Positions 2,757 through 40,824 of a DNA stretch of 64,000 nucleotides are shown here, one piece after another (within the stretch, counting starts at the first letter, position 1; every line of letters begins with the position of its first letter). Made by a program: the position numbers and the translations under genes. The notes under the pieces were generated by a model, which did not search any database, had not been told where the DNA came from, and worked only from the letters and a program-made list of their open reading frames with translations. Source of the stretch: Deltaproteobacteria bacterium (GTDB lineage: Bacteria > Desulfobacterota > Desulfuromonadia > Desulfuromonadales > Geopsychrobacteraceae); NCBI GenBank assembly GCA_024276935.1, contig JAJRWH010000073.1, positions 1-64,000 on the forward strand, read 5' to 3'.

Positions 2757-2954
2757 GATCAACTTTCATCGCCGCGCTTGAACAACGAATGAAAATGGTT
2801 AAATCAACCGTTAACGTTTTTGTAAATAATTGCCGCAGACTATAGCAAAAACCCCTCAAAAGACATACGCCTTTTGCTTTTTACCGCAAGAGACTTCCCT
2901 TAAAAAAACCTGTTCCGCCAGCACTTGCACATTTTAAGAGTCCTGTTATTGTTA

Positions 2955-2971
2955 ATTGCCAATGTGGCAAT
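2955..2971. promoter_or_regulatory. Palindrome upstream of first chemoreceptor
   Basis: A perfect inverted repeat ATTGCCA-atg-TGGCAAT lies about 23 bases before the receptor ATG at 2994 and just ahead of its AAGGGGAAGG ribosome binding site. It could be an operator or an mRNA hairpin. No regulator can be assigned. Confidence 0.35.
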
Positions 2972-2993
2972 ATTAATTATAAGGGGAAGGCTA

Positions 2994-5585
2994 ATGTCGA
3001 TCCGCTACAAACTGCTCATTGTTTTGCTGGTGGCCGTTTTGTTACCAATGCTGGTCAGCCTGACCGTTTCTAAAATTTACTCGGGACGGACGCAGAACCT
3101 CACCTCTGAAGCAACAAACAGACTGGCCAGTGCTGATGTCAATCATATTATTACCGGTGCATTAAGTCTGGTCTCCGCCAATAAAACAGCCATTGATCGT
3201 CAACGTGAAGAGGCGATCAAAACCTACCTGCGCTCTGCTGCCGATACTCTCTATTATCAGGTCAGCAAGATTGAACACCTGTTACCTCGCGACCAGGCCT
3301 GGTCGCAAATTCGCAAAACAATGCTTGCCCCCAAGTTTGGCCAGACCGGCTACGCCTTCGGCATGAACAGCAAAGGAACCTTGACCATTCATCCCAAAAG
3401 TGAAGGGAAAAATCTGGCGGGGAAAAAACATATTGACGAAATGATCGCCAATAAAGAGGGTTATATTTCCTATGTCAGTGCCACGACCGGCCGCAAAAAA
3501 TCTGTTTTCTATCGTTATTACGCCCCTCTTGATCTGATTATTGCTCCCGGTGCATTCAGCGACGAAATGACCTCAATTGCTGATCTGGATGCTGAACTTG
3601 ATGCGATCGACCAACTCCAGAATCAGTTGCGCAAAATTAAAATCGGAAACAAGGGTTTTGTCTGGGTCATCGCCGTCGACAATGAAGCGGATAACACGGG
3701 TGATTTCATTGTCACACCTTTCGACGATGATATCGACAAGCTGGATCTGCTTTATAAAGATGCAAACGGAAATGAATACATCCCACAATTAGTCAAAACA
3801 GCATTGTCTGCCCCTGCGAACGCAATCAGCAGTGAAGAGCGCAAACTGATCCATCCGGCAGATGGCCAGGCTCAGGAAATGCTCCTGAGTTATAGCTACT
3901 ACAAACCCCTGAGATGGATCGTCGGCACTGCGCTACCCAAAGGTGAACTGACAGCAACAAGTGACCTGATTGCGGCTTCCTTCAGCAAGATGAACCTCGC
4001 GGTCCTGATCAGTACTCTGATTCTGCTGGGGCTCGCTGGCATTTTCGCCTGGATTGCGGCAACCCGGGCAATTAAACCGATTCGCAGTGTCCAGAACATG
4101 GCGATGGAAATGTCACTGGGTCATCTCGACAACCGCCTGCACATGAACCGTAGTGATGAAATTGGCCAGATGGCCAATGCGATGGATGACTTTGCTGATG
4201 ATTTGCAAAACCAGGTTGTCGAGGCCCTTAAACGACTTGGCAATGGCGATTTGACTTTTGCTATCGAGCCTAAGGACAACCAGGACCAGATACGGGGGGC
4301 AATCAAAAAACTGGTGGTTGATCTCAATCAAATGATGGCCCAGATCCTGACTGCAGGCGACCAGATTGATTCAGGCAGCCATCAAATCAGCGACTCAGCA
4401 CAGTCCCTGTCACTTGGAGCATCAAAATCTGCAGCGGCCCTTGAACAAATCGGGGCATCAATCAGCCAGATGGCGGATCAAACAAAACATAGCGCTCAAA
4501 ATGCAGGTCAGGCCAATTCGCTTTCAACCGGAGCTGTAGAGCAAGCCCAGAACGGCAACCAACAGATGGAAGCAATGGTTCGTGCCATGGATGATATCAA
4601 GGCTTCGGGAGAAAGCATCAGTCGCATCATCAAAGTCATTGACGAAATTGCTTTTCAAACCAATCTGTTGGCTCTGAATGCTGCCGTTGAAGCCGCACGC
4701 GCCGGACAGCACGGCAAAGGGTTTGCGGTCGTTGCTGAAGAGGTGCGTAATCTCGCCGCACGCAGCGCCAAAGCCGCGGAAGAAACAACCGGCCTCATTG
4801 AAAGCTCTGTCGAAAAAACCAACAATGGCGCACAAATTGCCGACCAGACCGCTGCCGCACTCAATGAAATTGTCGAAAGTGTTACCAAGGTTTCAGACCT
4901 GGTTCATGGAATAGCAACCGCGAGTAATGAACAAGCCCAGGGCATTTCGCAAATCAATCAAGGGCTTGAACAGATCGACCAGGTGATTCAGCAAAATACA
5001 GCAGCAGCCGAAGAAAGTGCTGCCACCAGTGAAGAACTCTCCAGCCAGGCATCCTACCTGAAAGAAATGCTGTCACGCTTCAAACTGAATCAACAACAGC
5101 AGTCGCCGCAGGCCTATGAATCCCAACCAGAACAACTCGCAATGACTCCGGTCGACACAGGAGGCCAATCATTCGGTGGTGACTTCATCATCCGCTGGAA
5201 AGACAGCCTTTGTACCGGGATTTCGCGTGTTGATGAACAACACCAAAAGCTGGTCGCTTTGATCAATCAACTCTTTCGTTGCATGAAAGATGGTGGTGAC
5301 AGAATGGTTCTGGCTCAGGTGGTTGATGAGCTGACCTCTTATACCGTCACCCACTTCCGCGATGAAGAAGAATTGATGCGTCAGCACAACTATCCAGACC
5401 TTGAAAACCACAAATCCATCCATGAACTTTTTGTCAACAAGGTCAGTGTTGCCGCAGAGAAGCTCAAAGCAGGTGAACGGGTCGCCCCGGCTGATCTGTA
5501 CAACTTCCTGAAAGGTTGGTTGGTCAATCATATTGAAGAGCAGGACCGGGATGGCTTCGCTCCCTATATCAAAAACAGGCCCTGA
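2994..5585 (+). CDS. Methyl-accepting chemotaxis protein with double Cache and C-terminal hemerythrin
   Basis: A transmembrane chemoreceptor of 863 residues. The start at 2994 is chosen for its AAGGGGAAGG site; an upstream in-frame ATG at 2925 adds 23 residues and has none. The order is a membrane helix near residues 5-28, a periplasmic region with two Cache-like lobes ([18 protein letters not shown] and [12 protein letters not shown]), a second helix, HAMP, and the MCP signalling hairpin with the tip [21 protein letters not shown] bacteriohemerythrin domain fills the last 125 residues. Its iron ligands are visible: the His of [15 protein letters not shown] (HxxxE), HKSIH (HxxxH) and HIEEQD (HxxxxD). 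Family knowledge links this fusion to oxygen or redox sensing, as in DcrH of Desulfovibrio. It lies upstream of a paralogue and the che cluster. Confidence 0.93.
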
Positions 5586-5659: not shown

Positions 5660-7951
5660 ATGCTGAAAACGATCAAAGCCAAACTGATCCTCAGCTTTTT
5701 GTTCGTTATCGCCGTGATCATCTGCTTCGGTCTGGTTGTTATCGTTAAGACAGGTGGTGTTTCTAAAGACACGGTCACTTTCGTTGAAAGCTACTGGGCT
5801 ACGGCCGATTTGATCATGGAAACCCGGATCACTTTTGACGAAATATCCCACGCCATGTCTCATCCATCACCAGAGATGGATCGTGAGCAGTTTATTGCCA
5901 AATCGACTACGGACTTAATGGACATGCGCAATCGTTTTCCAGATTCGGCACTCGATAAAACAATCAGCCGCAAAATCACCGACCAGATCGATCTTGTTAT
6001 TGCGGCTCTGGCGGATCCTGTCCGGCAAATGGGATTGCCCGCAAAAAAAATGGAAGAAGCAGACGCCGCAGTCAAACCTTTGCTGCAACGATTAGAACAA
6101 GACCGCAAAACAAGGCTGACAAATCTGGTCTGGGAAGGGGTCATGGCCTTCAACGATATTCTCATTACCAATGATCCGAACGAAAAAATAGCTTTCGATC
6201 AAACCATAGCAAAAATTGAAAATGATCCCGATTTTGCAGGTTTATCCAGTATCTATATCCCTTTCAAAAAAAAGGCGTTAGAGGTTTTTTCTTCTGCCAA
6301 CAAGCTGATCGAAGCACGCAACACCTTCAGTGAAAATGGCGAAGCTCTGGCCGAGCTTCTTGGACAGGCAGAAAAACAATTCGAAGGGGACGTTGTCGAC
6401 CCTGCAACACTCGCATTGCTTGACGACCTCAAGGGGACCCAGACAATTCTCATTGCAGGGCTGCTTCTAACAGTAATTATTGCCTTGCTGATCGGTGTCC
6501 TCATCGCCAATCATCTTTCAGCACCATTGAAACAAGCAGTAGCTATGCTGGAATCGATGGAAAAAGGCCGTATCAGTCAGCGGCTGAAGTTGCACAGCAA
6601 AGATGAAATCGGTCGCATGGCAAAAGCGATGAACAGCTTCGCCGATTGTCTTGAAACTGAAATTGTCGTCCCCCTGCAACTGCTGGCGCAGGGAGATCTA
6701 ACCTTCAACGTTCAGCCACGTGATGAGCATGACCTCCTCCGCACCGCACTGAACAAACTATGCGACGATCTGAACAGGACAATGAATACCCTTCAGGACG
6801 CAGGGACCCAAATCAATGCGGGAGCCTGTCAAGTTGCCGACTCGAGCACTACCTTGTCGCAAGGAGCAACCGAATCTGCTGCCTCACTTGAAGAGATCAG
6901 TGCCTCGATGAACGAGATTTCAAGTCAGACCAATGTCAGTGCCGAAAATGCCAATCAGGCCAACATGCTCTCTGATGAAGCACGTAAAGCTGCAGAAGAG
7001 GGAAGCAAGAGGATGGAAGAAATGGTCATCGCCATGGGCGAGATCAATGAAGCCGGTCAAAACATCAGTAAAATTATCAAAGTTATCGACGAGATTGCAT
7101 TCCAGACAAACTTATTGGCCTTGAATGCGGCCGTCGAAGCGGCTCGTGCCGGACAACACGGGAAGGGTTTTGCTGTTGTTGCTGAAGAAGTACGAAATTT
7201 GGCCGCCCGCAGTGCCAAGGCGGCAGAAGAAACAGCGGAACTTATCGAAGGTTCGGTTGAAAAAGCCACCAATGGAACAATGGTTGCTGAAAAGACTGCG
7301 GAGGCACTTGAAGAGGTCGTCTCTGGAATTACAAAAGTCTCTGACCTGGTCAGTGAAATTGCTGCGGCCAGTAGTGAACAGGCTCAGGGGATCGGACAAG
7401 TCAACCAGGGGCTGGCTCAAATCGACCAGGTCATTCAACAAAATACTGCAAGTGCAGAAGAAAGTGCCGCAACCAGCGAAGAACTGGCCGGGCAATCCGG
7501 ACAATTGGCAAATATGCTAAACCGTTTTGTCCTCGCTGGCAGTAACAGTGACGGGACTCTGATCCGCTGGACAGGAGAGCTGGATACCGGAATTCCCGAT
7601 ATTGACCAGCAACACCGTCGCCTGGTTGATCTGATCAATCAACTGTTCACATCCATGCGCGAAGGAAATAACAAGACAGAAATCGCCCGCGTTGTCGATG
7701 AGTTGGTCAACTACACGGATACCCATTTTAGTTTCGAAGAAGAATTGATGCGAAGTCACGGATATCCCGGATACAGCGAGCATCAGCGCATCCACCAGTC
7801 CTTTGTTGCCCAGATCAATCAATTTGCAACCAAAATAAAAGGGGAAGAACATCTGGCCGCTGCTGACGTCTTCAGTTTCTTGAAAGACTGGCTGATCAGC
7901 CATATCAAAAAACAGGATATCGAAGGCTACGCGCCTATGATCAGAAAATAA
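5660..7951 (+). CDS. Methyl-accepting chemotaxis protein with C-terminal hemerythrin (paralogue)
   Basis: A second receptor of 763 residues with an AAAGGAGAG ribosome binding site. It has an N-terminal helix, a predicted helical sensor region of about 240 residues rather than Cache lobes, a second membrane helix near 265-290, HAMP, the MCP hairpin with the same tip sequence, and hemerythrin from about residue 640. The ligand motifs are the His of [20 protein letters not shown] and HIKKQD. The sensor region differs fully from the first receptor while signalling and hemerythrin parts are alike, so the pair probably couples different periplasmic inputs to the same cytoplasmic hemerythrin sensor. 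The gene starts 74 bases after the first receptor, and both may be co-transcribed. Confidence 0.93.
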
Positions 7952-23621: not shown

Positions 23622-23720
23622 GCGTTGGGCGTTGGGCGTTGGGCGTTGGGCGTTGGGCGTTGGGCGTTGGGCGTTGGGCGTTGGGCGTTGGGCGTTGGGC
23701 GTTGGGCGTTGGGCGTTGGG
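23622..23720. repeat. Heptamer tandem repeat, GCGTTGG x 14
   Basis: Fourteen perfect copies of a 7-bp unit, with no mismatches seen. It lies in the gap between the serS start and the HD gene stop. The frame changes with each copy, so it is not coding. The unit is a variant of the GGCGNNN family at 1399, 26932 and 61143. Confidence 0.97.
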
Positions 23721-30314: not shown

Positions 30315-31379
30315 TCAGTATTCCTCCAAAATTTCATATTCTGTCGTCCGCCGCACCGGCACAAACCCCGCCCCGCGCGCCAGTTCGATGATTTCTTCCT
30401 GCGACATGCGGAAAGAAATTCCGGCCGCGGCAACGACATTTTCTTCAAGCATGGTGCCGCCCAGATCGTTGGCGCCGAAAAAGAGCGCGACCTGGGCCAT
30501 CCGTGCCCCTTGCGTCACCCAGCTGGCCTGAATGTTGTTGATATTGTCAAGCACAATGCGCGACAGGGCAAGAACCTTCAGGTAATCGACGCCGCTCGCT
30601 GTTTCACCACCCAGTTCGGTATTGTCGGGCTGAAATGTCCAGGGGATAAAGGCGGTAAAGCCGGAGGTACGCGCCTGAATCTCACGGATCCGCAACAGAT
30701 GCTCGACAATATCATCCGGCCCCTCGCAACTGCCGAACATCATGGTTGCGGTGGTGCGCATGCCCAGAGCGTGCGCCGCTTCCATCACCTCGCCCCACTG
30801 CTGCCAGCCGATCTTGTTGGGTGAAATCTGCTGCCGGACCTCATCGACCAAAACCTCGGCTCCGGCACCGGGCAGTGAGGCCAGCCCTGCCGCCTGTAAA
30901 CGTTGCAGGCACTCTGGCATCGAAAGATCTGACAACTTGGCAATGTGGCAAATTTCTGCCGCAGAAAGTGAGTGAATCTGCACTTGAGGAAAACACTGCC
31001 GCAGCTGGCGAAAGAGTTCTTCAAACCATTCGATCTTCAGCTCAGGGTGCAACCCACCCTGCATCAGCAGCTGGGTGCCGCCATGATCGACCAGTTCCTG
31101 CACCTTGGCAAAAATTGTTTCATAATCGAGCAGATAGGCATTTTCAGCATCAGCATCGCAATAGAACGCGCAGAACTTGCACTTGGATTCACAGACGTTG
31201 CTGTAGTTGACATTACGATCAACCACAAAGCTGACCCGGTTTTCGGGATGTTTCTTCTTACGAACAGCATCGGCCAACTGGCCGATCTGCAGCAGGTCGG
31301 CTTCGGTCAACAGCCAGAGTGCCTCGTCACGTTCAATCGGCTGACCTGCGTTCAGTTTGTTTTGAATCGTTTCAAGCAT
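30315..31379 (-). CDS. mqnC: Cyclic dehypoxanthinyl futalosine synthase MqnC
   Basis: A radical SAM enzyme of the futalosine route to menaquinone; it cyclises dehypoxanthine futalosine. The [4Fe-4S] motif is [12 protein letters not shown]. MqnC-type segments are [41 protein letters not shown] and TTATMMFG, which distinguish it from MqnE. Length 354 residues. The ATG at 31379 lies next to the palindromic repeat 31390-31571, which separates it from mqnE upstream. It is followed within two bases by hisC. Confidence 0.9.
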
Positions 31380-31389
31380 AAGAACCTGT

Positions 31390-31571
31390 TAGCCACCAAA
31401 GCACCAAGGACACTAAGAAGACAAGAACCTTTTAACGCTGAGACGCGAAGAGGGAGAGATCGCAGAGAGAGGCGTAGGGCTTTTCAGATTTTAACTCCAA
31501 GACATTCTCCCCGTCTCTCCACCTCAGCGCCTCCGCGTTAAAAAAGATTTTTTTGGTGTTCTTGGTGGCTA
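31390..31571. repeat. 182-bp palindromic repeat between mqnE and mqnC
   Basis: Both ends read TAGCCACCAA when taken inward from each side (left TAGCCACCAAAGCACCAAGG; right complement GTAGCCACCAAGAACACCAA), followed on both arms by TTTTTAACGC and GAG/CGC-rich blocks. The arms are imperfect inverted copies of about 70 bases. It fills the gap between two co-directional pathway genes. Confidence 0.85.
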
Positions 31572-31578
31572 CCTTTTC

Positions 31579-32649
31579 TCAGATTTCGTTATACAAGGTA
31601 TCCCGCTCGACCGGCACTCTGCCTGCCTTGCGGATCAGATCGATGATCTGTTCCTTACCCATCGCCTGCGGTGAGTCGGCCCCGGCGTCATGGCCGATCT
31701 TCTCTTCGACCACCGTGCCGTCAAGATCATTGACTCCGAAGCAGAGCGCGGTCTGGGCAATCTTCAACCCCAACATGACCCAGTAGGCCTTGATATGTTG
31801 AAAATTATCCAGATATAGTCGGCTGATCGCCAGGGTCTTGAGGGCATCAACCCCTACGACCCCTTTAGCCCCTGGTACCCGGGTATTGTCCGGTTGAAAA
31901 GCCAGCGGGATGAAAGTCTGAAATCCACCGGTTCGATCCTGTAACTCACGCAACAGCCGCAAATGCTCGACCCGATCTGCGTAACTTTCGAGATGACCAA
32001 AAAGCATGGTGGCATTACTGCGTAAACCGGCGGCGTGAACCTTTTCGGTCACCTCCAGCCAGCGCTGCCCTGATATTTTCTCCGGGCAGATCAGGTCACG
32101 TACCTGCTGGCCCAGAATTTCGGCACCACCACCTGGCAGAGAACCGAGGCCCGCAGACTTAAGTGCGTCGATGACTCCCGTGATACTTAACCCCGACAGT
32201 TGAGCAAAATAATCGATCTCAACCGCCGTAAAAGCCTTGATGTGCAACTGCGGTGACACCTCTTTTATGGTTCTGAGCATCTGCAGGTAAAAATCAAAGG
32301 GCAGATCGGGGTGCAATCCACCGACGGTGTGAATTTCAGTCGCCCCGGCGGCAGTAGCCTCCCGCGCCTTGTCGGCGATCTGTTCCAGCGCCAGAGTATA
32401 AACTCCCGGCTCGTCAACCTCTTTGGAAAAGGCGCAGAACTTACATCGATTGACGCAGAGGTTGGTGTAATTGATGTGCCGGTTGACGTTGAAATAAACC
32501 TTGTCACCATTCTTGCGCCGATTGGCCTCAGCCGCCAGGCCACCGATAAACAACAGGTCGGATGACTCAAAGAGCGCCAATGCCTCTGCGTCGGATATGC
32601 GGGTATCCGCTGCGACTTTTTCTTTTACGGTTGCAAATAACTTGAGCAT
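31579..32649 (-). CDS. mqnE: Aminofutalosine synthase MqnE
   Basis: A radical SAM enzyme that makes aminofutalosine from the chorismate-derived 3-enolpyruvyl benzoate, the entry step of the futalosine route. The [4Fe-4S] motif is CVNRCKFCAF in NRHINYTNLCVNRCKFCAF. MqnE-type segments are TEIHTVGGLHPDLPFDFY, IKAFTAVEIDYF and SNATMLFGHLES. The ATG at 32649 is favoured over a GTG at 32655; 356 residues. It precedes mqnC, separated by a palindromic repeat, and follows ubiX by about 80 bases. Confidence 0.9.
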   Translation of the reverse strand: MLKLFATVKEKVAADTRISDAEALALFESSDLLFIGGLAAEANRRKNGDKVYFNVNRHINYTNLCVNRCKFCAFSKEVDEPGVYTLALEQIADKAREATAAGATEIHTVGGLHPDLPFDFYLQMLRTIKEVSPQLHIKAFTAVEIDYFAQLSGLSITGVIDALKSAGLGSLPGGGAEILGQQVRDLICPEKISGQRWLEVTEKVHAAGLRSNATMLFGHLESYADRVEHLRLLRELQDRTGGFQTFIPLAFQPDNTRVPGAKGVVGVDALKTLAISRLYLDNFQHIKAYWVMLGLKIAQTALCFGVNDLDGTVVEEKIGHDAGADSPQAMGKEQIIDLIRKAGRVPVERDTLYNEI

Positions 32650-32730
32650 AATCACCGGCCCTAAAACCTGTTTTTCTCAGGATTCCCATGGAATACAGCT
32701 CCCGGATTTTATCCTGGCGTTATCCAGAGG

Positions 32731-33342
32731 CTAATGCCTGTCTTCGTTGTCTTCACCCCAGCGTGCGAACAGCGCATGGTCAACCCCCAGTTGATCCAGC
32801 ACCTTGCCCACCACAAAATCAACCATCTCTGCCACCGACTGCGGTTGCTGATAAAAGGCCGGCATCGCCGGCAGGATCTGCCCACCAGCCTGTGACAGGC
32901 GCAGCAGATTCTCAAGATGAATCTGGTTAAAGGGGGTTTCACGCGGCACCAGCAGCAATTTCTGTTGCTCTTTCAAAACAACATCGGCGACCCGCTCAAG
33001 CAGATTTTCTGAAAGCCCGGCAGCTATCCGTCCAACTGTCCCCATCGAACAGGGGCAGATCACCAGCGCATCGGGAACACTGGAACCGCTGGCCACCGGG
33101 GCAAAGAAGTCATTCATCGCGTGATAAAGCAGATCATCACTGGAAAAGTGGTCGCACAGCTGTTCATGACAAGCGACAGGATCCTCATCCAACTGCAGAC
33201 CGGTCTCAAAACTGAGCACCTGCCGACCGGCGTCACTGATGAGAACACTGACCTCTGTCTCCACACACAGCAGTTCCTCGATCAGGCGCAGACCGTAAAT
33301 AGAGCCGGATGCTCCGGTTATGCCAACGACGATATTGTTCAT
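32731..33342 (-). CDS. ubiX: Flavin prenyltransferase, UbiX/MqnL type
   Basis: Makes prenylated FMN, the cofactor of UbiD-type decarboxylases. The N-terminal motif is IVVGITGASGSIYGLRL, and later ICPCSMGTVGRIAAGLSENL and VPRETPFNQIHLENL are conserved. The ATG at 33342 gives 203 residues; a GTG at 33360 is less likely. Its position between mqnE and ubiA fits the MqnL role in the futalosine pathway. The partner UbiD-like gene here is 6 kb away (39435) and has an altered active site. Confidence 0.9.
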   Translation of the reverse strand: MNNIVVGITGASGSIYGLRLIEELLCVETEVSVLISDAGRQVLSFETGLQLDEDPVACHEQLCDHFSSDDLLYHAMNDFFAPVASGSSVPDALVICPCSMGTVGRIAAGLSENLLERVADVVLKEQQKLLLVPRETPFNQIHLENLLRLSQAGGQILPAMPAFYQQPQSVAEMVDFVVGKVLDQLGVDHALFARWGEDNEDRH

Positions 33343-33360
33343 AAGCCCATATTCTGACAC

Positions 33361-33423
33361 AGAGTCGCAGAGAACCTCACAAGTTTGCCAGAGGAGTATT
33401 TTTTTGTTTTCTCTGCGGACTCT
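33361..33423. repeat. Palindromic repeat between ubiA and ubiX
   Basis: AGAGTCGCAGAGAA and TTCTCTGCGGACTCT are inverted copies with one extra base, followed outside by ACGCCTCTGCGTTAAAG. The GCAGAG and GCGTTAA words also occur in the repeat at 31390-31571, so this looks like a shorter member of the same family. Confidence 0.7.
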
Positions 33424-33456
33424 ACGCCTCTGCGTTAAAGATGCTCTTGATTGTCT

Positions 33457-34341
33457 TCAAACGACCGCATCGACCAGCGCGAAAACAAAAATCGTCACAC
33501 TGATATAACCATTCATATTGAAAAAAGCCGCATCCAGTTTCGACAGGTCATCCGGCTGGACCAGACGATGTTCGTAAAGCAGCAGTCCGGCAACAACCAG
33601 AACCCCGGCAAAATAGATCCACCCCAGACCACTGCCCGGCAGCACCAGTAACAAAAAGAGCAACATCAGGCCGTGAAAAATCCGCACCAGCAAAAAGGAT
33701 TTTTCCACCCCCAACCGAGATGGGATTGAATGCAAACCGCGTTCAACGTCAAATTCGTAATCTTGCAGGGCATAGAAGATATCAAACCCGGCAACCCAGA
33801 AGAGAACCGCCAATGCCAAGGCCACGACCGGCCAGTCCAGGGTTCCACGTAACGCAATATAGGCCCCGATCGGTGCGGCGGCCAGACAGATGCCAAGAAC
33901 AATATGGGCATAATGGGTAAAGCGTTTGCACAGCGCATAGAGGACAAAAAAAGCAATCGCCAGCGGGGCCAGTTTGAAACAGAGCGGATTGAGCATCCAG
34001 GCCGCAAGGAGAAATACTGCCAGAGACAGCAGAATAAAAACCCAGGCCTCAAGACGCGAAACCTTGCCCGCCGGGATGTGGCGTTCGGCGGTGCGTGGGT
34101 TGTCGGCATCGATACGGGCATCGATCAGTCGGTTCAACCCCATGGCACCACTACGCGCCCCGACCATCGCGACACAAATCCAGAAAATCTGCGCAAAACC
34201 CGGCAACGTTCCTGTTGCCAAGGCGGCCAGAACAACTCCCAGGAGCGCAAAGGGAAATGCGAAGATGGTATGAGAAAACTTGATCATCTCCAACAACGAA
34301 CGAAGCTTGCCTATGATCTGATACGGGTCTGTCGTTTCCAT
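33457..34341 (-). CDS. UbiA-family prenyltransferase (MqnP/MenA-like step)
   Basis: An integral membrane prenyltransferase of about 294 residues. The two aspartate-rich motifs are NRLIDARIDADNPRT and YALQDYEFDVERGLHS. About nine hydrophobic helices are visible. The ATG at 34341 has GGAAGAG upstream. In futalosine-pathway organisms the UbiA homologue MqnP prenylates 1,4-dihydroxy-6-naphthoate, and the mqn genes downstream support that role here over 4-hydroxybenzoate prenylation. It heads the run that continues with ubiX, mqnE and mqnC. Confidence 0.87.
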   Translation of the reverse strand: METTDPYQIIGKLRSLLEMIKFSHTIFAFPFALLGVVLAALATGTLPGFAQIFWICVAMVGARSGAMGLNRLIDARIDADNPRTAERHIPAGKVSRLEAWVFILLSLAVFLLAAWMLNPLCFKLAPLAIAFFVLYALCKRFTHYAHIVLGICLAAAPIGAYIALRGTLDWPVVALALAVLFWVAGFDIFYALQDYEFDVERGLHSIPSRLGVEKSFLLVRIFHGLMLLFLLLVLPGSGLGWIYFAGVLVVAGLLLYEHRLVQPDDLSKLDAAFFNMNGYISVTIFVFALVDAVV

Positions 34342-34450
34342 CACTCTTCCAGGATATATAGTGGCTGAACTGAAACGACACTCTACACCTGTCTCGCCTG
34401 ACCGACAAGCCCTTCGCTTTCAGGCTCTGCGTCTGCTATAGTTCGAATCC

Positions 34451-34903
34451 ATGCCTGAACTTTTGACCGAACATGGCCTGCTGTCTCTCTTTCTGCTGAG
34501 TTTCTGTGCATCAACCCTGATTCCGCTGGGATCAGAATGGTTGCTGGTGGCCTTGCTGCTTGGCGGCAGCAATCCGCTGTTGACTGTTGTTGTGGCAAGT
34601 GCGGGCAATAGTCTGGGAGCAATCACCAGTTACCTGATCGGGATTGGTGGCAGTCGTTGGCTGATCGAAAAAATATTGCGCATCAATCAGCAACAACAGC
34701 TCAGAGCACAAAACTGGTTCAATCGCTATGGCAGTTGGGCGTTGCTTTTTTCGTGGCTTCCTTTGGTTGGCGACCCTCTGTGTCTGGTTGCCGGGACCTT
34801 GCGGCATAGCTTCGGCAGATTCATCCTGCTGGTCGCCATTGGCAAAACAACGCGCTACAGCCTGGTTGCCATTTTAACCCTGACCGGCAGCAACCTGATT
34901 TGA
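34451..34903 (+). CDS. yqaA: YqaA/DedA-family membrane protein
   Basis: A 150-residue inner-membrane protein with about four helices. It has the YqaA-type segments STLIPLGSEWLL, AGNSLGAITSYLIG, FNRYGSWALLFSWLPLVGDP and CLVAGTL; the proline- and glycine-rich GDPLC region is typical of DedA/VTT relatives. It may help move lipids or undecaprenyl phosphate across the membrane, but this is inference from the superfamily. It starts 107 bases from ubiA in the opposite direction and is followed directly by the MFS gene. Confidence 0.83.
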   Translation: MPELLTEHGLLSLFLLSFCASTLIPLGSEWLLVALLLGGSNPLLTVVVASAGNSLGAITSYLIGIGGSRWLIEKILRINQQQQLRAQNWFNRYGSWALLFSWLPLVGDPLCLVAGTLRHSFGRFILLVAIGKTTRYSLVAILTLTGSNLI

Positions 34904-34904
34904 C

Positions 34905-36062
34905 ATGAGATCAATGATGCTTTACACCCCGGCCTTTGCAGCCCTGTTTGTCACAAATCTGTTGATTGTTGCCAGCTTTGCCGGTTTCTTTTTCTTACCT
35001 CTGTTCATCGGTGAGCATGGTGGCAGCGAAACGGATATTGGTCTGCTCATGGGCGGGTTTGCCCTGGCTTCTGCTCTTTGTCGGCCCTGGATTTCGGAGA
35101 TGATTGACCGGATCGGACGCAAGCACAGTTACACCATCGGCAGTCTGATCATGACCCTTGCTCCACTTTTATACCTGCCCTTCGGCGGCGATCTCCGGCA
35201 TTTTTTCTGGCCACTGATGCTCCTGCGTATCGTTCATGGCGTTGGCCTGGCCATCTGCTTTACTGCAATCTTCACCTTTATCGTCGACCTGATTCCGGAA
35301 CAACGCCTCAATGAGGGGATTGGTATGTTTGGTATTTCGGGTCTGGTCGGCTTCGCTGTCGGGCCTATCTTTGCCGAGCTGGTGATCAATCAGGGTGGTT
35401 TTTCTGCTCTTTTTATTGTGGCTTCCCTGCTGGCAGGTGGTGGGCTGCTGTTACATCTTCCGGTCAAAGAAAAACGGCGTACACCAGCTGCTGGCGACAA
35501 AAACACCGGGTTCTTCGTTCTATTGCGACAGCGTAAGCATTTATTGATTGCACTACTGGCCGGAATTTTTGGCTTTGGGTTGGCCGCAACCGGAACATTT
35601 ATTGCGCCACTGGCCGCCGAACGTGGCATCCATTTTATCTCTCGTTATTATCTCGCCTATTCAGCAACGGCAATCGGGATTCGCTTTGTAATCCGCTCGG
35701 TTGCAGACCGCCATGGTGAAGCGCGACTCCTCCCTTGGGGGATTGTCCTCTCAATGGCCGGACTCTTTTGCCTGCCATTTATCAACAATGGCCTGCTGCT
35801 GGTTATCAGCGGCCTGCTTTCGGGAGTGGGCCATGGTCTGGTCTTTCCCTCGCTTAATGCCCTGGCAATCCGTGGAGAGTCCTATCAGGTCCGTGGCAAG
35901 ATCACCGGCATTTTTACCGGCAGTATTGATGGTGGCGCCTTTATCGGTTCAATCTTGCTGGGACTGATCGGTGAACTGGCCGGGCTCTCCAGTCTGTTTT
36001 TCTGTGCTGCCGCCTTTATGGGTCTCGCTTTCCCCCTTTTGTATCTACGCGCTGCTCGCTGA
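34905..36062 (+). CDS. Major facilitator superfamily transporter
   Basis: A 385-residue, about 12-helix transporter. The loop 2-3 signature is FALASALCRPWISEMIDRIG, followed by GRKHSYTIGS; the second half carries a similar RFVIRSVADRHGEARLLPWG. Substrate unknown; it could be a drug or small-molecule exporter. It begins one base after the yqaA stop. Its last 18 bases overlap the 3' end of the convergent TVP38-family gene. Confidence 0.87.
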   Translation: MRSMMLYTPAFAALFVTNLLIVASFAGFFFLPLFIGEHGGSETDIGLLMGGFALASALCRPWISEMIDRIGRKHSYTIGSLIMTLAPLLYLPFGGDLRHFFWPLMLLRIVHGVGLAICFTAIFTFIVDLIPEQRLNEGIGMFGISGLVGFAVGPIFAELVINQGGFSALFIVASLLAGGGLLLHLPVKEKRRTPAAGDKNTGFFVLLRQRKHLLIALLAGIFGFGLAATGTFIAPLAAERGIHFISRYYLAYSATAIGIRFVIRSVADRHGEARLLPWGIVLSMAGLFCLPFINNGLLLVISGLLSGVGHGLVFPSLNALAIRGESYQVRGKITGIFTGSIDGGAFIGSILLGLIGELAGLSSLFFCAAAFMGLAFPLLYLRAAR

Positions 36063-36713
36063 TTTTTCACGGTGTCCTATCCAGCGCGCCAGCAGAATCC
36101 CCAGCAGCAAAAACACCCCCGAACCGATCAGTAACCAGAGACGATTTTTTGCCCCGGCAGAACCGATACCGCCCAATAAAACAAAAGCGATCAAGCCCGG
36201 CAAAATACCAATAAAGGTGCCAATGGCATAATCCCGGTGTCGCACTGCTGTCAATCCACAGCCGTAATTGACCGCGTCGAATGGCAACATGAGCAGCCGT
36301 AAAATCAAAACCGTCACCAGTCCGTTTGCTTTCAGGCGCCCCTCCCAGGCGTGCAAAGACTCTCCACTCTTCTTTTTGACCCAGTCACGCCCGAACCACC
36401 TGGCAACACTGAAAGCAACATTGGCGCTGGCATTTTCACCCAAAATTGTAAAAAAAATCCCCAACAAGGGGCCAAACAGGAGTCCCGATGAAACCGTCAG
36501 CAGGGTTGCCGGAAAGAGTAAAAACGGTCGAAGAGCGTAGATCAGCACATAAATACTTGCCGCTTTCCACAAGCCAAAGGCCTCAAGCTGTGATTCGAGT
36601 CGATAGGGAACTTCCTGGAGGCTAAGACCACTTTTTATCCAGACAAAAATGGCCCCCAGCAGCAATATCGCCCAAACTCCACCAAACAGCCATTTAAGTT
36701 TTTTCTCCTCCAT
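36045..36713 (-). CDS. TVP38/TMEM64 (VTT) family membrane protein
   Basis: A 222-residue membrane protein with about six helices. The VTT-domain segments are RPFLLFPATLLTVSSGLLFG, LGENASANVAFSVARWFG, LRLLMLPFDAVNYGCGLT and the PGLIAFVLLGG region. The family moves phospholipids between leaflets in eukaryotes; the bacterial role is unsettled. It starts directly after the xthA stop, suggesting co-transcription, and its 3' end overlaps the convergent MFS gene. Confidence 0.88.
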   Translation of the reverse strand: MEEKKLKWLFGGVWAILLLGAIFVWIKSGLSLQEVPYRLESQLEAFGLWKAASIYVLIYALRPFLLFPATLLTVSSGLLFGPLLGIFFTILGENASANVAFSVARWFGRDWVKKKSGESLHAWEGRLKANGLVTVLILRLLMLPFDAVNYGCGLTAVRHRDYAIGTFIGILPGLIAFVLLGGIGSAGAKNRLWLLIGSGVFLLLGILLARWIGHREKSASSA

Positions 36714-37594: not shown

Positions 37595-39412
37595 CTAGCG
37601 ACTGATAAATCCGACGATCTCTGCCATAAATTCAGCCCCGTAGCGCTCAAGCTTGCGCTGCCCGACACCATTGATCTGCAGAAGGTCCTCTTCACGCGTC
37701 GGCAGGGTCGCCGCCATCTCGGCCAGACTGGCATCACCAAAAACAACATAGGGAGGCACACCATCGCGGTCAGCAATTTCTTTACGGCGGGCGCGCAGTA
37801 ATTGAAACAGTCGCTCGTCATACTCGATACCGACAATTTTGCGCGTGGTTTTCTTTTTACGTTGTGGCTTGCTGCGCGGACGACTCAGCCTGAGTTCGAT
37901 TTCACCACGCAACAGGGGTCTGGCAGCTTCGGTCAATTTGAGGGTCGAATAGTTGGCCATGTCCTGTTCAAGATACCCAAGGTGAACCAGCTGACGCAAC
38001 AGGTGCGTCCAGTGTTCCTGCCCTGCATCTTTGCCGATTCCCCAGGTCGACAGTTTTTCATGACCCAGGCTGTAAATTCTTTCGGTCCTGGCTCCGCGCA
38101 ACACATCAACCACATGGCCGATTCCAAACCTTTGCCCTACCCGATAAACACAGGAAAGTGCTTTGCGTGCGTCCTCTGTAGCATCAAAGGTTTCAGGCGG
38201 ATCAAGGCAGATATCACAATTGCCACAATCTTTCTCCAGCACTTCTCCAAAGTAGCCGAGCAGGGCTCGCCGCCTGCAGGTTCCGGCTTCGGCAAAAGCG
38301 ACCATGGCGTTTAATTTTTGCAATTCAATTCGGGTCTGTTCCGGATTCCCCCCTTTTTCGATCAGACCACGTGAGACAACAATGTCACCATAACCGAAGA
38401 GCAGCAAAGCTTCGGCGGGCAGACCATCACGCCCGGCTCGTCCGGTCTCCTGATAATAGCTTTCGATATTCTTCGGCAGATCGTAATGAACCACAAAACG
38501 CACATTCGGCTTGTCTATGCCCATCCCGAAAGCAACGGTGGCCACCACAATCTGCAGATCGTCGCGGATAAAATCATCCTGCACCTGCCGTCTGGTTGCA
38601 GCATCAAGCCCGGCATGATAGGCGGCAGCCTGATAGCCGTCCTGCTGCAATTTTGTCGCAATTTCTTCAACGCGCTTGCGACTCAGCGCATAAATGATCC
38701 CGGAATCGGTGCGACGACTGACAAGAAAATGCTTGAGTTGATCATAGGGACGTTGTTTGTCGATCAGCGTATAGCGGATATTGGGACGGTCAAAACCGGC
38801 AATGATGCATAATGGATTATCGAGATTCAAGCGTTGCAGAATATCCTGCCGGGTCTGTTTTTCGGCGGTTGCAGTCAGTGCCAGCAAGGGCACCCCGGGA
38901 AACATCTGGTGCAGAGTCCCCAACTGAATATATTCGGGACGAAAGTCATGTCCCCATTGGGAAATACAATGAGCTTCGTCGATGGCAAACAAGGCAATTT
39001 CGACAGATCTCAAATGTTCGAGAAAACCTTCATTGAGCAATCGTTCGGGAGCAACGTACAGCAGATCAAGCTCGCCAGCATGCATTTGGGCCAGCACCTG
39101 GCGGCTTTCAGTGGCTGAAAGTGATGAATTATAGCAAGCGGCTCTGACTCCGTTGGCAAGCAAGGCATCGACCTGATCCTTCATCAAGGAGATCAGTGGT
39201 GAAACAACAATTCCGACCCCATCCCGCAGCAGGGCCGGAAGCTGATAACAGAGAGATTTTCCGCCCCCAGTTGGCATCAAAACAAAAGCATCTCCACCGG
39301 CAACAACCTGTTCAACCACCTGTTGCTGATGTTCACGAAATTGCTGATAGCCAAAAACCTGTTGAAGAAGGGTTCTCGCATCCTGTTCTTGCCTCATGGC
39401 ATCTTTCGACAT
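37595..39412 (-). CDS. recQ: ATP-dependent DNA helicase RecQ
   Basis: A 605-residue 3'-5' DNA helicase. Motifs in order are FGYQQFREHQQQVV (motif 0), MPTGGGKSLCYQLPAL (Walker A), AIDEAHCISQWGHDFRPEY (Walker B and RecQ aromatic loop), ATVAFGMGIDKPNVRFVVHY and QETGRAGRDG. The zinc-binding CRRRALLGYFGE and CGNCDICLDPP follow, then a winged helix and a C-terminal HRDC domain (about 525-605). GGAGGAG precedes the ATG. It lies downstream of the UbiD-like gene and upstream of xthA, on one strand. Confidence 0.95.
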   Translation of the reverse strand: MSKDAMRQEQDARTLLQQVFGYQQFREHQQQVVEQVVAGGDAFVLMPTGGGKSLCYQLPALLRDGVGIVVSPLISLMKDQVDALLANGVRAACYNSSLSATESRQVLAQMHAGELDLLYVAPERLLNEGFLEHLRSVEIALFAIDEAHCISQWGHDFRPEYIQLGTLHQMFPGVPLLALTATAEKQTRQDILQRLNLDNPLCIIAGFDRPNIRYTLIDKQRPYDQLKHFLVSRRTDSGIIYALSRKRVEEIATKLQQDGYQAAAYHAGLDAATRRQVQDDFIRDDLQIVVATVAFGMGIDKPNVRFVVHYDLPKNIESYYQETGRAGRDGLPAEALLLFGYGDIVVSRGLIEKGGNPEQTRIELQKLNAMVAFAEAGTCRRRALLGYFGEVLEKDCGNCDICLDPPETFDATEDARKALSCVYRVGQRFGIGHVVDVLRGARTERIYSLGHEKLSTWGIGKDAGQEHWTHLLRQLVHLGYLEQDMANYSTLKLTEAARPLLRGEIELRLSRPRSKPQRKKKTTRKIVGIEYDERLFQLLRARRKEIADRDGVPPYVVFGDASLAEMAATLPTREEDLLQINGVGQRKLERYGAEFMAEIVGFISR

Positions 39413-39434: not shown

Positions 39435-40754
39435 TTATGTTAGTGGCTCAGATAAACGGCGCAGCAAATTATCAAGCATCTGCTTGTCATGGGACAAAAC
39501 CGCAGGGGATCTGGAAATGACCCTCTCAAGATCGGCATCAGGCTTTCGCCATACCTGCTCTGCCCGGGTTTGCGACAAAAGACTCCGCCAGTTTTTCTCG
39601 ATTGAACCCAGCTTGTCTTCAGGCAGAACAACCAACATCTGGAGTCGCCGCAGATAGCCAAGATTCTGGATTTTTTCAGCCAACGTATCTGCCCTTGTGG
39701 CTTCACTTTGGCAACTGACAAAATATATTCCATAAAAAGCGGCATCAAGTGGCATCGCCAGCTGGGTAATTTCGGGAAGATCTACAGCCAGACGAACCCG
39801 GATCAATTCAAGCTCGGCTTTAGCAATCCAACAGTCCTCCTGCGGCAGAGGGCCTGCCAGTGTCACTGGCAACAGGGGATCAGCAACTGTTGCAATCAGA
39901 CTGATCTCAACAAGCGGGCATTCATTTGCACCACCATAATCACCTCGATAGCAACCAAAGGGCCCTTCGTTTATTGTGCGGCACGGATCAACCCACCCCT
40001 CCAGCAATATCTGCGCTGAAGTTGGACAACGAAGTGGAAGTGTCTGACAATCTGCAACCTGTACTGCGGCACGCTGAATAATGCCACTAAAATTCAGCTC
40101 ACTGCAATCTCCTGGCAGCGAGCAGGCCGCAGCAAAGATCAAGGCCGGATCTGCCCCCAGTAAAATTGCAACCGGCATCGCTTTTTCCTCACGTTGCCAA
40201 AGGGCAAGATGCTCACCAGCTCCTGAACCAGGAAGCAGATTCAGGGTCAAGCTTCGGTTTCCTGCAACCCCGACCCGATAAATCCCCGCATTGTGGATCT
40301 CTGAATCGGGCGCTCGACTCACAACCACTGCAAGGGTCATAAAACTCCGCTTTTCCTGTGGCCAATAACGAATTCCCGGTACAAATCCCAGATCATTTTC
40401 TCGCTGGCTCAGGGATCCTGTTTTGCTTTCAAACCTGGCCTTAGCCAGAAGTTGGCGCAAACGCCCAGCAGAGTCGCCCTTTTTGAAGCGGCAAAGTTCT
40501 TTTGTTAGCCACTGCCCAAACGAAAACAGACTCTCGTGTCCCAGAGCCATTGCCATTCGTCGGTCGGAACCAAACAGATTGCTCGCGAGGGTCAGTGGTG
40601 ATTGCCTGATTCGTTTAAAAATAAGACCTGGTCTATTTTGTCCTGAGTACTGATCAGTCAAACAGGCCAATTCGAGCCGTGCATCAACTTCAATATCGAC
40701 CTCTTGGATTTGTCTGTCCTGTCGCAGGGACTCGATATATGTCTGCAAATTCAT
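39435..40754 (-). CDS. UbiD-family decarboxylase-like protein, altered active site
   Basis: A 439-residue protein of the UbiD fold. It keeps NLFGSDRRMAMALG, the NAGIYRVGV segment with the Arg that contacts prenyl-FMN, PVAILLGADPALIFAA, and EGPFG with the first active-site Glu. The next residue group reads EGPFGCYRGDY, where UbiD enzymes normally have a second Glu after EGPFG; here it is Cys. The family uses prenyl-FMN made by UbiX, and MqnM of the futalosine pathway belongs here, so it could serve the mqn genes; the substitution makes activity uncertain. It begins just after the nuo terminator and precedes recQ by 22 bases. Confidence 0.75.
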   Translation of the reverse strand: MNLQTYIESLRQDRQIQEVDIEVDARLELACLTDQYSGQNRPGLIFKRIRQSPLTLASNLFGSDRRMAMALGHESLFSFGQWLTKELCRFKKGDSAGRLRQLLAKARFESKTGSLSQRENDLGFVPGIRYWPQEKRSFMTLAVVVSRAPDSEIHNAGIYRVGVAGNRSLTLNLLPGSGAGEHLALWQREEKAMPVAILLGADPALIFAAACSLPGDCSELNFSGIIQRAAVQVADCQTLPLRCPTSAQILLEGWVDPCRTINEGPFGCYRGDYGGANECPLVEISLIATVADPLLPVTLAGPLPQEDCWIAKAELELIRVRLAVDLPEITQLAMPLDAAFYGIYFVSCQSEATRADTLAEKIQNLGYLRRLQMLVVLPEDKLGSIEKNWRSLLSQTRAEQVWRKPDADLERVISRSPAVLSHDKQMLDNLLRRLSEPLT

Positions 40755-40785: not shown

Positions 40786-40824
40786 AATAAAAAAAGGCCC
40801 TTCAACATCTGTCGAAGGGCCTTT
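40786..40824 (-). terminator. Terminator of the nuo operon
   Basis: AAAGGCCCTTC and GAAGGGCCTTT form an 11-bp perfect stem with a 10-base loop, followed on the minus strand by TTTTTATTTTT-like sequence. It lies 21 bases after nuoN. Confidence 0.93.

Follow-up and report, generated by a model that had tools for sequence, protein, structure and literature searches.

Genes at the locus

In the 64,000-nucleotide stretch of DNA analyzed here (the window), a gene for a UbiD-family protein lies on the minus strand in the order nuoL-nuoM-nuoN, hairpin, ubiD-like gene, recQ, xth, a DedA-like gene, two plus-strand genes, ubiA, ubiX, mqnE, mqnC, and hisC. Its product lacks the second active-site acid of the family, and we call it and its similar relatives acid-less. 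The main features of the locus are the following:

40793-40824, minus strand: strong terminator-like hairpin after nuoN (14 pairs plus a T tail), separating the nuo operon from the ubiD-like gene
39435-40754, minus strand: acid-less UbiD-family protein, the subject of this study (ATG start; open reading frame of 439 aa)
37595-39412, minus strand: recQ, the next gene downstream, 22 bp past the ubiD-like gene; the same neighbor is found in most relatives examined
33457-34344, minus strand: ubiA/mqnP-like polyprenyltransferase of the menaquinone cluster
32731-33360, minus strand: ubiX-like flavin prenyltransferase (TIGR00421, above cut-off)
31579-32655, minus strand: mqnE, futalosine pathway (TIGR03700, above cut-off)
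30315-31379, minus strand: mqnC, futalosine pathway (TIGR03699, above cut-off)

Given the intervening hairpin, read-through is not assumed, and we do not place the ubiD-like gene in an operon with nuo. This arrangement is repeated throughout the genus, and many other genomes retain nuoN-ubiD-recQ or ubiD-ubiA-ubiX; in the Geobacteraceae, ubiD, ubiA, and ubiX are grouped together. Of 57 acid-less loci for which 8 kb of DNA or more was available, 39 have a same-strand ubiA, ubiX, mqnE, or mqnC gene in the flanking sequence retrieved. This conserved neighborhood links the gene to the stage of menaquinone synthesis at which prenylation and decarboxylation take place. The initial annotation described the gene as not next to ubiX, which is misleading: ubiX lies on the same strand, 6.1 kb downstream, in a cluster with ubiA, mqnE, and mqnC.

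Between ubiA and xth, positions 34451 to 36713 hold plus-strand DedA-like and MFS genes and a minus-strand DedA/TVP38-like gene, an insert that is mostly kept in genomes G001, G006, and G007 and absent from G004. Elsewhere in the window, two perfect 7-bp tandem arrays lie at or between gene ends (GCGTTGG ×14.1 at 23622-23720 and CGCCTCA ×11.7 at 1399-1480) and may be phase-variable or mobile sequence. Two consecutive genes (2925-5585 and 5660-7951) encode methyl-accepting chemotaxis proteins, each ending, as judged by eye, in a hemerythrin-type domain, and adjoin a cheA/cheW/cheR/cheB-like set.

A UbiD-family protein with an incomplete catalytic motif

The window protein scores 159.4 bits against the Pfam family UbiD (PF01977; cut-off, 23.3) and 49.7 bits against UbiD_N (PF20695; cut-off, 24.3). 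Its best match among the curated models is the menaquinone biosynthesis decarboxylase TIGR03701, at 215.8 bits, below the cut-off of 495.9; it also falls below the cut-off of the UbiD family decarboxylase model TIGR00148 (199.7 bits; cut-off, 244.85). On TIGR03701, the acid-bearing short form of the Desulfovibrionaceae reaches 658 bits, above the cut-off, and a Geobacter acid-less member reaches 381 bits; the long UbiDs described below, at 335 to 345 bits, are also under the cut-off. AlphaFold2 yields a model with a pLDDT of 91.1 and a pTM of 0.92, for which the top solved matches in Foldseek are to Escherichia coli UbiD (PDB ID 5m1d; E 5e-36; TM 0.76 to 0.81). By sequence and by comparison of the AlphaFold2 model, E. 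coli UbiD is the closest solved relative.

The UbiD family motif is RXnEX4(E/D), with Glu or Asp at the second acid position (PMC5818171). In the window protein, IYRVGV spans residues 158 to 163 (40283-40266) and EGPFGC spans residues 263 to 268 (39968-39951). The residues that matter for the comparison are these:

40290-40292, minus strand: Asn155, retained (E. coli Asn175; 152 of 152 sequences)
40275-40277, minus strand: Arg160, retained (E. coli Arg180, Aspergillus niger Fdc1 Arg173; 152 of 152 sequences)
40224-40229, minus strand: Gly176-Ser177, in place of the conserved His-Lys/Arg of acid-bearing UbiDs (E. coli His196-Arg197)
40098-40100, minus strand: Glu219, retained (E. coli Glu241; Glu229, a metal ligand in PA0254 [PMC3650080]; Glu in 150 and Asp in 2 of 152 sequences)
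39966-39968, minus strand: Glu263, the first Glu of the motif, retained (E. coli Glu285, Fdc1 Glu277)
39951-39953, minus strand: Cys268 (codon TGC), aligned with the catalytic Glu/Asp of the family (E. coli UbiD Asp290, Fdc1 Glu282)

HMMER alignments to solved structures run through the motif region without gaps and place Cys268 on Asp290 of E. coli UbiD and on the Glu of PhdA and PA0254; a subfamily profile likewise aligns it with the catalytic acid of VdcC and HmfF. Every solved relative shown has Asp or Glu at this position, with EGPFGC aligned gap-free in each. The initial annotation had read EGPFGC as a Cys substituted for the second acid, with the first Glu and the Arg of IYRVGV kept. 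The gap-free alignments bear this out (the kept residues being Glu263 and Arg160), as does the Cys found in every gene-bearing member of the genus (seven genomes), and sequence alignment revealed no other Glu or Asp at the catalytic position. That UbiD and Fdc1 enzymes have Glu there was too narrow a statement: an acid is expected, but Asp is equally normal, as in E. coli UbiD (Asp290) and in the motif RXnEX4(E/D) (PMC5818171). A sequencing error, an assembly artifact, or chance can be rejected as the source of the Cys, which is common to seven genomes of the genus; the acid is also missing from 84 of 152 distinct relatives.

We found no alignment column near the motif in which an Asp or Glu is conserved throughout the acid-less group but lacking in the acid-bearing one. 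The sole group-wide candidate for a compensating acid, position 248, is a Gln in the window protein itself, and Asp272, four residues past Cys268, is not conserved even inside the genus. Acids fixed only in the genus with Cys occur at positions 64, 316, and 325. We also dropped the idea that the lost His is a metal ligand of the PA0254/Fdc1 kind: the alignment puts PA0254 His188 two positions off E. coli His196, and His188 aligns with a Gly in bona fide UbiDs (PMC3650080). We refer to His196-Arg197 only as a conserved pair with a putative role.

The window protein thus shares with E. coli UbiD (PDB IDs 2idb and 5m1d) its fold and all four of Asn175, Arg180, Glu241, and Glu285. It differs in having Cys268 for Asp290 and Gly176-Ser177 for His196-Arg197 and in lacking the loop of Asp439. 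With R160 and E263 present and Cys268 in place of E/D, the RXnEX4(E/D) ionic network is incomplete; by the features tested, the protein is a UbiD-fold member of the UbiD family and is no UbiD decarboxylase. In A. niger Fdc1, the Glu277-Arg173-Glu282 network is required for catalysis, and activity survives only Glu-to-Asp changes; Glu282 is the acid-base, and the E282Q variant no longer decarboxylates while still forming mature prenyl-FMN (prFMN), whose maturation depends on Arg173 (PMC5818171). By the yardstick of the orthologous position in Fdc1, a protein with the Arg and the first Glu and without the acid should not decarboxylate.

Acid loss marks a clade

Most of the 60 relatives searched have two UbiDs, a form of about 615 aa and a form of about 450 to 490 aa. 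The long form carries EGPFGDHLGYYS, in which the Asp is present, and an intact HRG. The motif of the short form is EGPFGNHTG in most of the Desulfuromonadia (the class of the window genome, which includes Geobacter). In the window's genus, it is EGPFGC(Y/F) in each of the seven members with a short form; relatives in which the approximately 490-aa type is the only UbiD retain the Asp. In a scan of named genomes, the short acid-less form was found in the Desulfuromonadales and Geobacteraceae (genomes labeled Geomonas, Oryzomonas, Desulfuromusa, Pelovirga, and Geopsychrobacter), and the Asp was present in the Desulfovibrionaceae, Opitutales, and others.

Residue counts were made on 152 distinct relative sequences, 84 acid-less and 68 acid-bearing. 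The acid position of the former is occupied by Asn (75 sequences), Cys (7), Thr (1), or Met (1), and the loss is accompanied by further changes. At the position of Ser177, 83 of 84 acid-less sequences have Ser or Thr, and all 68 acid-bearing ones have Lys or Arg. The neighboring His (position of His196) is missing in 83 of the 84. Deletion or alteration of the C-terminal LD(H/F/Y)A loop has likewise removed its Asp in 83. Two acid-less members have also lost the first Glu of the motif (Glu263). A single acid-less sequence, L066 of G049, has a His aligned at His196 (Asn, His, Ser at the three positions), which could reflect an intermediate or an alignment slip.

With the motif and His-Lys columns left out of the alignment, the resulting tree requires two changes to the acid-less state, both on supported branches. 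The first lies at the base of the Desulfuromonadia group, inside which one Nitrospirae-labeled genome falls; the second gave rise to a clade nested among Asp-bearing sequences, with the same set of changes. Two independent origins are below what a statistical test needs. Loss of the acid is well supported as a property of a whole clade and is not a one-off event. Our literature search, which covered open-license papers, found no description of an acid-less UbiD subfamily.

Acid-less UbiDs also occur in records labeled Chloroflexi, Nitrospirae, and (by NCBI rank) Myxococcota (L110, L159, L124, and L161). The motif of L110 is identical to that of Desulfuromonadaceae members, and its contig is probably misbinned or mislabeled.

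The acid-less form accompanies a long, intact UbiD

Within the order, 49 of 61 genomes carry the short form. Counting the window genome, the long form accompanies it in 47 of these 49. The motif was read in all but about a dozen of the short forms, and every one read is acid-less. The two exceptions are drafts, the window's own genome (90% complete) and G008 (89%). Across an even sample of 297 genomes of the phylum, the coding pattern EGPF(G/A)NH occurs in 6, all of which have the long-form pattern, and the long-form pattern itself occurs in 26. Among named genomes, a long UbiD is found in seven of the eight with an acid-less copy and in none of the four with an acid-bearing copy only. Beyond the Desulfuromonadia, both kinds occur together in G353, G354, G187, and G284, whose short forms are acid-less (Asn, Asn, Asn, and Met, respectively), and the short form of the Nitrospirae-labeled G356 is acid-less as well. 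G355, with Thr at the acid position and no second UbiD found, is a possible exception or an incomplete genome. Conversely, the short form is absent from the complete genomes G040, G046, and G052, in which MqnE occurs with the long form alone; G042 lacks UbiD altogether and matches TIGR03700 (MqnE) only very weakly.

The long UbiD belongs to the same family and the same genomes as the acid-less form but differs in keeping EGPFGDHLGYYS and HRG, in evolving slowly, and in having its gene elsewhere in the genome. The simplest reading is that the long form is the decarboxylase in the Desulfuromonadia.

Two long copies of 615 aa are found in one draft of the genus (G003:C3 and G003:C52), by duplication or in a mixed bin. 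A third kind of UbiD (EGPFGEYTGYYSG) is found at L046 (G013) and L051 (G006), the two copies being very alike despite the different genera; L046 scores 538 bits, above the cut-off of the phenylphosphate carboxylase beta model.

A search of the window assembly for UbiD-family genes matched the acid-less gene only; a second, complete ubiD, the check proposed by the initial annotation, was thus not found in this draft, although relatives have one. Within the genus, the long ubiD occurs in the closed genome G004 and in five more genomes. Three genes that neighbor it in the congener G007 lack close matches in the window assembly; two of them are conserved and, judged by size and order, also sit beside the long ubiD in G004. 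The missing neighbors fit a stretch that is unassembled in the draft, although this is not proof. Loss of the long UbiD from the window genome is likewise not provable, since the neighbors are missing as well, as in an assembly gap.

A proposed role for the acid-less protein

We propose, with somewhat better than even confidence, that the window protein is a former UbiD of the menaquinone cluster that now acts as a non-decarboxylating partner of the long UbiD, in the handling of cofactor or substrate. The protein would descend from the approximately 490-aa menaquinone decarboxylase type of other Desulfobacterota. The acid-base residue (replaced by Cys here and by Asn in relatives), the His-Lys/Arg pair, and the C-terminal LD(H/F/Y)A loop are gone, and with them, probably, the decarboxylation chemistry. 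The gene has stayed in the menaquinone (futalosine) neighborhood under purifying selection, while a separate UbiD of about 615 aa would be the actual decarboxylase. The retained Asn/Arg/Glu side may bind prFMN, with the protein holding or maturing it for the long UbiD; alternatively within the same model, the protein may bind the UbiA-made naphthoate and hand it on. The initial annotation had likewise suggested a relative without normal decarboxylation, perhaps prFMN binding or accessory. That suggestion is strengthened by the clade-wide loss of the acid, the linked changes, and the second complete UbiD; its argument from ubiX falls away.

Among known systems, a close one is the menaquinone biosynthesis decarboxylase modeled by TIGR03701 (SCO4490 type). 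This is the UbiD homologue of the futalosine pathway, which is named MqnL in PMC4746308; the use of MqnM for a UbiD in the initial annotation reversed the two names, MqnM being the UbiX homologue (PMC4746308). The window gene resembles it in its neighborhood of ubiA, ubiX, mqnE, and mqnC (30315-34344, same strand), but the protein is far below the cut-off and lacks the acid, the His-Lys/Arg pair, and the C-terminal loop.

Cofactor handling is suggested by the retained Arg, Asn, and Glu, which suit such a role, and by Fdc1 E282Q, which matures the cofactor without the acid. In that variant, the same position is neutralized, prFMN is matured, and decarboxylation does not take place (PMC5818171), but it is a laboratory mutant, whereas the acid-less UbiD is a natural state common to a clade. 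The retained residues are compatible with prFMN binding by the acid-less protein; the lost His-Lys/Arg pair may touch the cofactor site, in which case binding could have been lost too. Proteins that supply or mature prFMN for UbiD enzymes without decarboxylating are known: LpdD is a prFMNH2-binding chaperone and PhdC a prFMN maturase (PMC10865409 and PMC13040415), and the authors of the LpdD study expect further such proteins in other bacteria (PMC10865409). Both are possible functional analogues, although their folds are unrelated to the UbiD fold of the acid-less protein. We hypothesize that the acid-less protein delivers or matures prFMN for a UbiD. More tentatively, and as a possibility to which we give well under even weight, a UbiD decarboxylase may have been turned twice, in one class of anaerobes, into a dedicated subunit that holds prFMN, matures it, or hands over substrate in menaquinone synthesis, encoded beside UbiX/UbiA and in the service of an intact UbiD. 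It would then be a helper with the UbiD fold, of the sort anticipated in other bacteria by the LpdD study. Some complete genomes with the menaquinone pathway are without the acid-less gene, so a partner role cannot be essential in them.

Could the protein instead be a changed catalyst, one that binds prFMN and performs another reaction, such as a hydration, an isomerization, or a lyase reaction on a quinone precursor, with the Asn or Cys and the new Ser as working residues? The pattern of replacement (among the 84 acid-less sequences, Ser177 or Thr in 83 and Asn in 75) goes beyond mere loss, Arg160, Glu263, Asn155, and Glu219 are retained, and the gene is under purifying selection. The dN/dS ratio is 0.12 to 0.32 in 14 close acid-less pairs and 0.04 to 0.06 in two Asp-bearing pairs; the former values indicate that the protein is maintained, under weaker constraint than its catalytic relatives. 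However, the short form evolves fast: its mean identity is 43%, compared with 75% for the long form over the same pairs of genomes. The acid position is also unfixed (N, C, T, or M) and Glu263 is lost in two members, which is odd for an active site, and several members of the order with the pathway lack the gene. We consider a changed catalyst unlikely, at about one chance in five.

A still smaller probability, of roughly one in eight, attaches to the protein remaining the menaquinone decarboxylase of the window organism, with the proton coming from Cys268, another side chain, or water. In favor, its gene is the sole UbiD-family gene found in the assembly and lies close to ubiA, ubiX, mqnE, and mqnC, and G008, of the same genus, shows the same picture. 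Yet, in Fdc1, activity needs an acidic residue at that position (PMC5818171), and no compensating acid near the motif is conserved across the acid-less sequences. Moreover, only 90% of the genome is estimated to be in the assembly, and the closed G004 and five further genomes of the genus do have the long gene, whose neighbors likewise have no close match here, as expected of an unassembled stretch.

About one chance in ten is left for a structural or regulatory relative outside menaquinone synthesis, for example, in flavin sensing or linked to recQ/nuo by position only. In favor are the fast evolution of the protein and the presence of recQ, xth, and nuoN among the neighbors in many genomes, but ubiA and ubiX are constant companions across families (grouped with the gene in the Geobacteraceae), and the long UbiD and MqnE are nearly always in the same genomes. 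That the gene is merely decaying is very improbable: it evolves faster than its neighbors, its dN/dS exceeds that of the two acid-bearing pairs, and it is missing from several lineages, but dN/dS is well below 1 in all 14 acid-less pairs, the reading frame is open in every listed genome, 49 of the order's 61 genomes have the gene, and the predicted fold is of high confidence.

Returning to the non-decarboxylating partner, its possible interest lies in two questions described as unsolved in PMC10865409: how UbiD enzymes receive their cofactor and have it matured, and how the prenylated product of UbiA, which is insoluble, becomes accessible to a soluble UbiD. The acid-less copy is also an annotation trap, since in drafts like that of the window, in which no long gene was found, it is the only UbiD and would be called the menaquinone decarboxylase. 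Linked to ubiA and ubiX and nearly always found with an intact UbiD, the acid-less UbiD is a candidate for cofactor supply or for access to the UbiA product, and it occurs in the well-studied bacteria of the Geobacter group.
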